From NCBI RefSeq assembly GCF_003202435.1, contig NZ_QJHK01000016.1, positions 1 through 64,000 of the forward strand: a stretch of 64,000 nt of DNA, given 5' to 3'. A program made the position numbers and the translations under genes. How positions within the stretch are numbered: position 1 is the stretch's first letter; every line of letters begins with the position of its first letter. Shown here one piece after another: positions 1 to 930 of the stretch. The stretch is from Flavobacterium cheongpyeongense (GTDB taxonomy: Bacteria > Bacteroidota > Bacteroidia > Flavobacteriales > Flavobacteriaceae). The notes beneath the pieces are model-generated. The model was not told the DNA's origin. It saw only the letters and a list, made by a program, of their open reading frames with translations, and did no database searches.

Positions 1-2
1 GG

Positions 3-17
3 CTCTGATTAACAGTC
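3..17 (-). repeat. tRNA-Asn anticodon-arm fragment overlapping GIY-YIG stop (copy 1)
   Basis: Fifteen bases identical to the anticodon arm of the intact tRNA-Asn genes (773-787). On the minus strand they read GACTGTTAATCAGAG, with the anticodon GTT inside. The final two sense codons and the stop codon of the GIY-YIG gene lie in this fragment. Confidence 0.85.
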
Positions 18-299
18 TTTATATTTTTCAAGTAATTTATTTATGACTTCGGGATATCGCAATAGGTTTTCAATGTAGATTTTGCTTTTCATATCTTTGA
101 TGTGCTTTTCAATCGCCAAAGCTTGCGTCTTTGATTCGCATTCTATTTTCAGAAAAACAATCCAGTCATCTGCTTTATAAGTGAATTTTCGTTCTTGCTC
201 TGAATTCAAATGAAAATCTAATCTTGTATCAAAATCTGCTGTAAAGCCAGTATAAAATCGACTCAATTTAGCAGAATGAAGAATATAAACGTAATTCAT
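9..299 (-). CDS. Small GIY-YIG nuclease domain protein (copy 1)
   Basis: A 96-residue stand-alone GIY-YIG domain of the UvrC/URI-like small family. The two halves of the signature are visible near the N-terminus as YVYIL and FYTGF, followed by the conserved Arg (TRL) and, near residue 63, the catalytic-type Glu in AIEKHIK. Family members cut DNA; the substrate of these small bacterial proteins is not established. The gene follows a transcription terminator, so it may be expressed from its own weak promoter or by readthrough of the tRNA-Asn transcript. The last codons GAC TGT TAA are identical to the tRNA-Asn anticodon arm. It differs from copy 2 by one residue (Thr versus Ser near position 58). 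Confidence 0.85.
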   Translation of the reverse strand: MNYVYILHSAKLSRFYTGFTADFDTRLDFHLNSEQERKFTYKADDWIVFLKIECESKTQALAIEKHIKDMKSKIYIENLLRYPEVINKLLEKYKDC

Positions 300-316
300 A
301 TTTTTAATTTAAAAAA

Positions 317-344
317 AAAGACCATCATTTGCATGATAGTCTTT
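317..344 (-). terminator. Hairpin with T-run upstream of GIY-YIG copy 1
   Basis: Twelve-base arms (317-328 and 333-344) with one G-U pair and the loop TTGC. On the minus strand they are followed by a run of nine Ts. It sits where the natural terminator of a tRNA-Asn transcript sits in unit 2, so it was copied with the unit. Confidence 0.7.
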
Positions 345-351
345 TAATAAG

Positions 352-375
352 CTCCCCCTCTTGGGCTCGAACCAA
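352..375 (-). repeat. tRNA-Asn 3' end fragment (T arm and acceptor strand)
   Basis: Twenty-four bases identical to the 3' end of the intact tRNA-Asn genes, covering the T arm except its first base, the 3' acceptor strand and the discriminator base. No 5' half is present next to it, so it cannot give a tRNA. It lies beside an 18-bp palindrome that replaces the variable loop. Confidence 0.85.
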
Positions 376-393
376 CCCCGAAAGCTTTCGGGG
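376..393. repeat. 18-bp perfect palindrome inside the broken tRNA-Asn
   Basis: CCCCGAAAGCTTTCGGGG is a perfect palindrome. It replaces five bases (variable loop and first T-stem base) of tRNA-Asn and joins the anticodon-arm copy to the 3' end copy. It could act as a transcription stop for the GIY-YIG gene or as the scar or recognition site of the recombination that made the array. Confidence 0.8.
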
Positions 394-408
394 CTCTGAT
401 TAACAGTC
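394..408 (-). repeat. tRNA-Asn anticodon-arm fragment overlapping GIY-YIG stop (copy 2)
   Basis: Same 15 bases as 3-17 and as the anticodon arm at 773-787 and in the second tRNA gene. The last three codons of the GIY-YIG gene fall in it. Confidence 0.85.
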
Positions 409-690
409 TTTATATTTTTCAAGTAATTTATTTATGACTTCGGGATATCGCAATAGGTTTTCAATGTAGATTTTGCTTTTCATATCTTTGATGTGCTTTT
501 CAATCGCCAAAGCTTGCGACTTTGATTCGCATTCTATTTTCAGAAAAACAATCCAGTCATCTGCTTTATAAGTGAATTTTCGTTCTTGCTCTGAATTCAA
601 ATGAAAATCTAATCTTGTATCAAAATCTGCTGTAAAGCCAGTATAAAATCGACTCAATTTAGCAGAATGAAGAATATAAACGTAATTCAT
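400..690 (-). CDS. Small GIY-YIG nuclease domain protein (copy 2)
   Basis: A 96-residue protein identical to copy 1 (9-299) except for one Ser/Thr difference. It has the same YVYIL and FYTGF signature halves and the Glu in AIEKHIK. The ATG lies just after the hairpin and T-run that follow tRNA-Asn, and the TAA stop lies inside a copied anticodon arm (394-408). The near identity of the copies points to a recent duplication or gene conversion. Whether the nuclease acts on tRNA-gene DNA is inference. Confidence 0.85.
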   Translation of the reverse strand: MNYVYILHSAKLSRFYTGFTADFDTRLDFHLNSEQERKFTYKADDWIVFLKIECESKSQALAIEKHIKDMKSKIYIENLLRYPEVINKLLEKYKDC

Positions 691-708
691 ATTTTTAATT
701 TAAAAAAA

Positions 709-736
709 AAAGACCATCATTTGCATGATAGTCTTT
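709..736 (-). terminator. Terminator of tRNA-Asn operon, upstream of GIY-YIG copy 2
   Basis: Twelve-base arms (709-720 and 725-736) with one G-U pair and a four-base loop, followed on the minus strand by ten Ts. It lies 8 bp past the 3' end of the tRNA-Asn gene, as expected for a tRNA transcription terminator. Confidence 0.75.
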
Positions 737-743
737 TAATAAG

Positions 744-817
744 CTCCCCCTCTTGGGCTCGAACCAAGGACCCTCTGATTAACAGTCAGATGCTCTAACC
801 AACTGAGCTAAGGAGGA
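744..817 (-). tRNA. tRNA-Asn (GTT), copy 1
   Basis: A 74-base cloverleaf. The 7-bp acceptor stem pairs TCCTCCT with AGGGGGA (one G-U pair) and has discriminator G. The D arm is AGCTCAGTTGGTTAGAGC, the anticodon loop CTGTTAA carries anticodon GTT (Asn), and the T loop is TTCGAGC. CCA is not encoded. The sequence is identical to the second gene at 857-930; the two lie 39 bp apart and are probably co-transcribed. Confidence 0.97.
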
Positions 818-856
818 ATCACCTTAAAGGTAAATATGTTTGCTAGAAAAAGTTTG

Positions 857-930
857 CTCCCCCTCTTGGGCTCGAACCAAGGACCCTCTGATTAACAGTC
901 AGATGCTCTAACCAACTGAGCTAAGGAGGA
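857..930 (-). tRNA. tRNA-Asn (GTT), copy 2
   Basis: Identical in sequence to the tRNA-Asn gene at 744-817, and the first gene of the pair in the direction of transcription. Anticodon GTT, no encoded CCA. Confidence 0.97.

Follow-up and report, generated by a model that had tools for sequence, protein, structure and literature searches.

Small GIY-YIG nuclease units lodged in tRNA genes of Flavobacterium and other Bacteroidota, candidate homing-type elements

The first 64,000 nucleotides of contig NZ_QJHK01000016.1 (C8) of Flavobacterium cheongpyeongense, hereafter the window, begin with an array of small tandem units, each carrying a gene for a minimal GIY-YIG nuclease and parts of a tRNA-Asn gene. 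Such a unit sits inside a tRNA gene, in the lineage of the window just after the anticodon arm, and carries a replacement for the tRNA part that becomes detached from the native one, leaving an intact tRNA. On the far side, the native part that was displaced persists as a broken copy, preceded by a short tRNA fragment and a palindrome. Species have shared the nuclease gene more recently than they shared its neighbour; units occur in tandem, and some copies have lost the gene. We consider it somewhat better than an even chance that these units are minimal homing-type mobile elements living in tRNA genes and working like SegB of T-even phages, a reading that draws on this analogy. To our knowledge, the small GIY-YIG genes of Bacteroidota mostly have no assigned role.

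Empty and filled tRNA-Asn sites

A tRNA-Asn gene lies downstream of rseP across most of our genus sample (61 genomes, that of the window included; genomes, contigs and loci are designated below by G, C and L numbers). Among 50 such loci, four are occupied by a unit, three hold remnants and 35 are empty, that is, with no GIY-YIG match at E 1e-3 and no palindrome of a listed form beside tRNA-Asn sequence within 1.2 kb; the remaining eight were unusable (four non-syntenic, four on contigs ending too soon). A preliminary description of the window had taken the unit for a minimal element, a view that fixation in all relatives would have contradicted. The many empty sites in other genomes of the genus, and a spread between species later than that of the flank, agree with it.

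Near-identical units are present at the same site in F. hibisci, F. pectinovorum and F. hydrophilum (97%, 96% and 93% protein identity). Comparison of filled F. hibisci with the unit-free genome G060, of the kind that the preliminary description had recommended, revealed an insertion of 398 bp, with the native anticodon arm on one side of it and the native T arm on the other. The insert holds the GIY-YIG open reading frame (ORF) as its sole ORF and no integrase gene, as had been stated. Beyond the palindrome come the terminator and flank of the empty site, and a different terminator follows the restored tRNA. The five variable-loop bases are kept in the restored tRNA, and the palindrome stands in their place in the displaced copy. 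The inserted unit therefore restores the tRNA gene that it entered. Regeneration of the tRNA had been proposed from the outset; what has to be amended is the mode of entry, as the tRNA is split on insertion and a palindrome interrupts the far copy.

The nuclease gene of the window shows a synonymous divergence (dS) of 0.12 from that of F. pectinovorum and 0.10 from that of F. hydrophilum, whereas the corresponding values for rseP, some 330 bp away, are 0.96 and 0.82; the comparison covered three species pairs with the window. The rseP dS for F. hibisci (1.07) was kept out of these headline values because this rseP contains a stretch that BLAST leaves unaligned to the window's. The low nuclease dS relative to rseP indicates that the gene passed between species, or was converted, well after their flanks had diverged. 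Non-synonymous divergence (dN) of the nuclease gene is below dS (0.017 with F. pectinovorum and 0.031 with F. hydrophilum), which suggests that the gene has been kept functional, although three to seven amino-acid-changing against five to six silent differences make this a weak test.

The window by itself would be compatible with a plain local duplication affecting a gene located by chance beside a tRNA, plus a tRNA pseudogene. The precise insertion at an orthologous site that is empty elsewhere contradicts this reading; the low dS relative to the neighbouring gene, the many isotypes with the same boundaries and the absence of tRNAs near related paralogs (the last two below) also speak against it. 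We have dropped it, on the dS contrast, the empty sites and the exact insertion, as having next to no probability.

The array at the contig end

The window corresponds to positions 1-64000 of C8 in a 5.22-Mb draft genome of 89 contigs. Matching stretches are spaced 391 bp apart at 1-300 and 392-691, and 392 bp apart at 301-375 and 693-767; aligned over 1-375 and 392-767, the two copies differ by one substitution and one additional A in an A-run, as had been reported for two tandem units of about 391 bp. Each unit carries a 96-residue ORF on the minus strand (Table 1), and the product of the one at 400-690 matches the Pfam family GIY-YIG (PF01541, E 2.6e-12). Along the minus strand, two identical tRNA-Asn(GTT) genes are followed by a hairpin, the first ORF, a tRNA piece and the palindrome; beyond the palindrome come the T arm and acceptor 3' part of tRNA-Asn, a second hairpin, the second ORF and the contig end. 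The array thus does lie downstream of an intact tRNA-Asn, as previously noted. At the junction five tRNA bases have given way to the palindrome, and each unit accordingly terminates in a tRNA-Asn copy that the palindrome interrupts. The tRNA 3' part originally recognized in the unit is present, and is joined by a piece of the anticodon arm beside the palindrome, so that parts from both sides of a split tRNA border the unit.

Position 1, interpreted earlier as a unit boundary, proved to be a contig end as well. The final 127 bp of contig C27 are identical to the initial 127 bp of C8 (0 mismatches), and the end of C27 carries that palindrome again, then a 3' part of the tRNA that has one difference, a hairpin and finally other genes. 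The assembly therefore breaks inside the array, which joins C8 to C27. Leftward extension, advised in the preliminary description as a way to count units, continues the array onto C27 and gives a count of at least two, the array spanning the contig break.

Table 1. Features of the tRNA-Asn array at the start of the window
Feature	Coordinates	Strand	Basis
Intact tRNA-Asn(GTT), upstream tandem copy, outside any unit	856..930	-	ARAGORN; tandem tRNA-Asn pair at the same place in unit-free G060
Intact tRNA-Asn(GTT), regenerated gene	743..817	-	ARAGORN
Regenerated tRNA: 817-773 native, 772-743 unit-supplied	743..817	-	By analogy with the F. hibisci insertion
Terminator-like hairpin between tRNA and nuclease gene	709..735	-	Read from sequence; native counterpart in empty sites
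GIY-YIG nuclease ORF, 96 residues, unit 1	400..690	-	ORF list; PF01541; invariant residues
tRNA-Asn anticodon-arm piece, 15 nt, overlapping the last codons and stop of the ORF	394..408	-	Identical to the same stretch of tRNA 743-817
18-bp perfect palindrome replacing five variable-loop bases of tRNA-Asn	376..393	.	Palindrome searches
T arm and 3' acceptor part of tRNA-Asn, forming the right half of the broken copy and opening unit 2	351..375	-	Sequence, repeat match
Terminator-like hairpin, unit 2	318..344	-	Read from sequence
GIY-YIG nuclease ORF, 96 residues, unit 2, one residue different	9..299	-	ORF list
Unit 2 anticodon-arm piece (3-17) and first two palindrome bases (1-2); contig end, continues on C27 (L003)	1..17	-	
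Unit 1 as inserted element	376..772	-	Ends by analogy with the empty/filled pair

A second unit family is present in the same genome at the start of contig C13 (G000:C13:1-320, L004), where a different GIY-YIG gene of 84 residues (33% identity over the matched part) leads into part of tRNA-fMet, followed by another palindrome and the T arm of fMet. The layout is therefore not peculiar to tRNA-Asn. Elsewhere in this genome (L067, G000:C12:365927-366399), predicted tRNAs for Ser(ACT), Asp(GTC) and His(GTG) form a cluster; all three look odd and unlike the standard copies of the genome.

Tandem arrays of this kind have a precedent in SegB, a free-standing GIY-YIG homing endonuclease of phages T4 and T6 (PMC13096335; review PMC2988022). 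According to the first of these sources, T6 SegB cuts within tRNA genes, with 83 reproducible sites in the genome and the motif RAWTSGAAC at 23 of the 83, and builds tandem repeats of tRNA and nuclease gene by recombination, with microhomology between the tRNA 5' end and the segB 3' end. In our reading, this motif probably corresponds, as a reverse complement, to the T loop conserved among tRNA genes. By extension, the units might be an amplification module serving host or phage, in which the nuclease raises tRNA dosage under tRNA attack; their tandem repeats of a tRNA piece and a GIY-YIG gene do resemble those reported for T6 escape mutants (PMC13096335). However, only the first tRNA of the window's array is intact and the repeated copy is broken, so that tRNA dosage does not rise there. 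We have therefore dropped this explanation as quite improbable, although one locus elsewhere is an exception to the pattern: in G056 (L128) the nuclease gene lies between two intact tRNA-Asn genes, with no palindrome-broken copy after it.

One plan at many tRNA genes

The window protein has matches at E 1e-4 in 34 of the 61 genomes of the genus sample. With a profile of 23 proteins at E 1e-6, matches are found in 183 of 249 genomes of a family sample and 191 of 296 of a phylum sample, the weaker ones likely representing other GIY-YIG paralogs. We read 148 loci by script, 31 from the genus sample, 29 plus 60 from the family sample and 28 from the phylum sample; the set of 60 (L186-L245) was taken down the E-value list with arrays merged and flanks unseen, and at least one place (G133:C3) was not included. 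An intact tRNA, meaning an ARAGORN call, lies on the same strand within 400 bp at 124 of the 148 loci (28, 24, 46 and 26 in the respective sets); such a call can be a broken copy, as at L018, called tRNA-Lys beside an intact tRNA-Arg(TCT). Nine loci show a palindrome-broken copy alone and 15 show neither by script, most of these having a broken copy by eye (e.g. L157, L188, L189, L233, L247 and L255). The expected association of the unit with tRNA genes in flavobacterial genomes was thus recovered, and identical genes away from tRNAs, which would have counted against it, were not seen, those 15 script-negative loci notwithstanding. In contrast, 20 control paralogs picked from the weaker profile matches in the same genus sample (L286-L305, E 4e-17 to 9e-14) have no tRNA in about 700 bp on either side (0/20), indicating that residence at tRNAs is a trait of one branch of these proteins.

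The nearest intact tRNA is upstream of the nuclease gene at 92 of the 124 loci and downstream at 32. The upstream plan consists of an intact tRNA, a terminator, the nuclease gene and then a further copy of that tRNA, with a palindrome (e.g. TCCCGA-loop-TCGGGA) in place of a fixed stretch. Counted from the first anticodon base, the replaced stretch runs from -8 to 9, exactly the 17-nt anticodon stem-loop, in the Ala, Val, Arg(TCT), Arg(ACG), Pro(TGG), Pro(GGG) and Lys elements; from 10 to 15 in the Asn lineage of the window (Asn-1) and from 17 to 22 in a second one (Asn-2); from 22 to 27 in Phe and Pro(CGG); from 15 to 23 in Asp; from 0 to 5 in elongator Met; and from 3 to 13 in fMet. As the script sometimes returned the terminator or the native T arm, these positions are from rows with both tRNA flanks or were read by eye. 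Palindrome-broken copies were found for 14 isotype or anticodon labels, excluding a doubtful match to Arg(TCG). A mirrored plan is also present at tRNA-Asn (L140, L150, L151), with a promoter and tRNA 5' part broken by a D-loop palindrome, the nuclease gene and then the intact tRNA. More than one GIY-YIG match per array occurs at 52 of the 148 loci.

Some broken copies adjoin no nuclease gene (L112 in G051, L124 in G008, and the upstream copies in L142 and L158), and some of these are repeated; they are possibly non-autonomous forms. At L010 and L013 the nuclease frame can continue backwards without a stop through the tRNA-Phe gene upstream, and the resulting longer ORF begins within the tRNA. 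Outside Bacteroidota, a related GIY-YIG gene was found in eight of 61 genomes from the order of Rhizobium (L285, in Rhizobium johnstonii 3841; L306-L314), where seven of nine loci have a same-strand tRNA (Ala, Pro, Leu or Tyr) about 310 bp or less upstream and no clear broken copy.

The protein and its lineages

The GIY-YIG residues Y5, Y16, G18, R26 and E64 are invariant across 23 aligned proteins. The nearest solved chains by profile are the UPF0213 proteins BH0048 (1zg2, E 3.6e-12) and EF2693 (1ywl, E 5.5e-10), followed by SLX1 (E 2.2e-4). The AlphaFold model (mean predicted local distance difference test score 89.2) has its best fold match in 1zg2 as well (E 1.8e-3, none being below 1e-3), and behind it come SLX1 and the catalytic domain of I-TevI, with E near 0.2. 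The unit nucleases lie by tRNA genes, as the more distant paralogs of the same Flavobacterium genomes do not.

A tree of 121 proteins carrying 17 nearest-tRNA labels requires 31 label changes (minimum 16), against a mean of 86.3 when labels are shuffled, with none of 200 shuffles as low; the tree was built from 82 columns by a quick method and leaves many forks unresolved, and among its labels at least L018 (Lys) is wrong and a few, such as L213 (Ser) and L229 (His), are possibly not the element's tRNA. Arg(ACG), Arg(TCG) and Lys do not cluster. Asn proteins form three groups. Group 1, that of the window, has eight rows (SH-aLRT 96), all with the variable-loop palindrome; group 2 has a T-arm palindrome in L007, L008 and L161, its fourth row (L009) having no broken copy after the gene and a D-loop one upstream; and group 3 (L140, L150, L151) has the D-loop palindrome. 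A sixteenth Asn row, L239, is placed elsewhere on a long branch. On this tree, protein lineage goes with tRNA isotype and mostly with the position of the palindrome in the tRNA, positions having been compared within Asn. Such a match would fit recognition of a target, but also co-inheritance in an element moving by tRNA homology.

The palindrome

The window's palindrome, searched across the whole genome at up to one mismatch, occurs elsewhere only at the matching junction on C27, and none of 100 shuffled windows holds it at up to two mismatches. The exact repeat and the palindrome are not due to chance. Across loci its stem varies with matching partners (TCCCGA, CCCCGA, TTCCGA, CTCCGA, TCCCGC and TCCGCC): among 59 distinct inserts, 345 of 354 stem positions are paired, nine are unpaired and none is a G-T pair, bearing in mind that the selection of inserts required at least four of six pairs and so leans towards paired stems. 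Palindromes of TCCCGA type are also dispersed in 59 of the 61 genus-sample genomes, with 0 to 136 per genome against 0 to 3 for the reversed control; the window's genome carries just seven, its own form being confined to its junctions. Their number correlates with that of strong GIY-YIG matches per genome (Spearman 0.50; 0.44 per Mb; 0.36 as a partial correlation on genome size; kinship uncorrected in each case). Several of those dispersed in G006 interrupt other intergenic repeats.

These data bear on two further explanations. In the first, the palindrome is the substrate of the nuclease: a structure-specific enzyme would cut the hairpin in the broken tRNA copy of the element, and the freed tRNA ends would recombine with intact tRNA genes, the tRNA serving merely as homology. 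The intact tRNA would then be left uncut. The proximity of the protein to UPF0213 and then to SLX1, a structure-specific nuclease, is in favour of this possibility, as are the persistence of the palindrome through paired stem changes and the dispersed palindromes, whose number tracks that of the tRNA-lodged genes. Nevertheless, a cut palindrome repaired from the intact tRNA would be erased, yet 376-393 is kept inside the window's array, and the position of the palindrome differs among lineages, which this explanation does not require. We regard it as rather unlikely.

In the second, the broken tRNA copy would function at the RNA level: the nuclease message would end in a tRNA-like hairpin that regulates, stabilizes or guides the nuclease. 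The swap of exactly the anticodon stem-loop in many lineages is a boundary that makes sense for an RNA. However, most broken copies have no 5' acceptor half, the broken copy precedes the gene in the mirrored plan, G-T pairs are absent from the stems (with the selection bias just mentioned), and Rfam at E 0.1 finds nothing but the intact tRNAs in the four loci searched (L001, L003, L121 and L274). We therefore consider this improbable. A group I intron in the tRNA was rejected on the same Rfam search, which gave tRNAs and no intron RNA fold.

Discussion

The homing-type reading rests on the exact insertion relative to an empty orthologous site, polymorphic occupancy and the low dS of the nuclease gene compared with rseP; on the invariant GIY-YIG residues, dN below dS and the proximity to tRNAs that the 20 paralogs lack; and on the clustering of isotypes on the tree, the fixed palindrome position of each lineage, the mirrored plan, the arrays and the precedent of SegB. 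The units thus display the catalytic residues of a homing family, presence and absence among alleles and, by indirect evidence, a spread independent of the flank, as homing endonuclease genes do. In such a scenario, DNA bearing a unit would enter a cell with an empty tRNA gene, and the nuclease would cleave it at, or close to, the point that the palindrome marks. Repair of the break from the unit, via its tRNA-sequence ends, would copy the unit in and restore the tRNA. Exchange of the target stretch for the palindrome may spare the displaced copy from cutting, or from recombining the nuclease gene away, and unequal exchange between repeats would produce the arrays.

Several observations weigh against this reading. 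Known homing provides no explanation for the palindrome, and palindromes related to it also occur scattered at a distance from tRNAs: in G006, none of 20 such contexts (L166-L185; 258-421 bp fetched each) yielded a tRNA call. The palindrome might instead be the nuclease substrate, as discussed above. The restored tRNA-Asn of F. hibisci equals the empty G060 tRNA-Asn base for base, so that the presumed target is rebuilt unprotected while it is the displaced copy that is broken. A recoded, cut-resistant tRNA as protection of the filled allele is not seen at the Asn site, the one isotype compared; simple homing leaves the un-recoded tRNA unexplained, and any simple model of tRNA-gene cutting must still account for survival of the host copy. 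Native and imported terminators can be separated at the F. hibisci locus only, because in F. pectinovorum and the window's genome both copies have the same terminator. The 96-residue protein barely exceeds a catalytic domain, with no evident DNA-binding part for recognition of a tRNA gene, and isotype fidelity could arise from homology alone. Finally, no vehicle was found: the window protein, the single query used, has no relative in IMG/VR (a scan for close relatives) and no match among PLSDB plasmids or INPHARED phages (tblastn, E 1e-5), where distant lineages may nonetheless occur.

How do the units compare with known systems? Integrative elements with tyrosine integrases enter tRNA genes and restore them from their own end, and the units do likewise. 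They differ in having no integrase (one ORF in 398 bp), in their varying insertion point within the tRNA, in the palindrome at the junction and in their mirrored forms. Repetitive extragenic palindromic (REP) sequences are short, dispersed palindromes associated with RAYT (Y1, HUH) transposases. The units share with them short dispersed palindromes and a small nuclease gene; in contrast, their nuclease is GIY-YIG rather than a Y1 transposase, and their palindrome lies inside a tRNA copy. With SegB they have in common a GIY-YIG nuclease beside tRNA genes and tandem repeats of tRNA and nuclease gene. However, segB is a phage gene lying between tRNA genes, and neither the splitting and rebuilding of a tRNA nor a palindrome is among the features described for it in the available parts of its published accounts (PMC13096335; PMC2988022), whereas the Flavobacterium units are chromosomal, shorter than 400 bp and isotype-specific, and encode a smaller protein. 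No description of these bacterial units was found among the matches listed in a search of the open-access literature, which leaves subscription papers and preprints outside its scope.

There is a fair chance that the units deserve a class of their own. As a tentative formulation, which we hold to be possible rather than probable, this class would consist of integrase-free Bacteroidota cassettes of less than 400 bp that split a tRNA gene and rebuild it from their own ends, are specialized by isotype, and couple a minimal GIY-YIG nuclease to a short palindrome standing in for a constant segment of the displaced tRNA, a segment that in several lineages is exactly the anticodon arm. The palindrome would be a working part, as substrate, immunity mark or both, and the dispersed palindromes would be by-products or relatives.

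Small GIY-YIG genes are frequent in Bacteroidota (191 of the 296 sampled genomes, weaker paralogs included), and one large branch of them now gains a habitat, the tRNA genes, together with a fixed layout and isotype-specific lineages, the same design recurring at many different tRNA genes. A life cycle of insertion, tandem growth and gene loss becomes testable for this branch. The units provide a chromosomal counterpart to phage SegB and an explanation for tRNA-linked repeats that break assemblies. If they do home, essential tRNA genes across the phylum would harbour tiny elements, each restoring the gene that it has interrupted.

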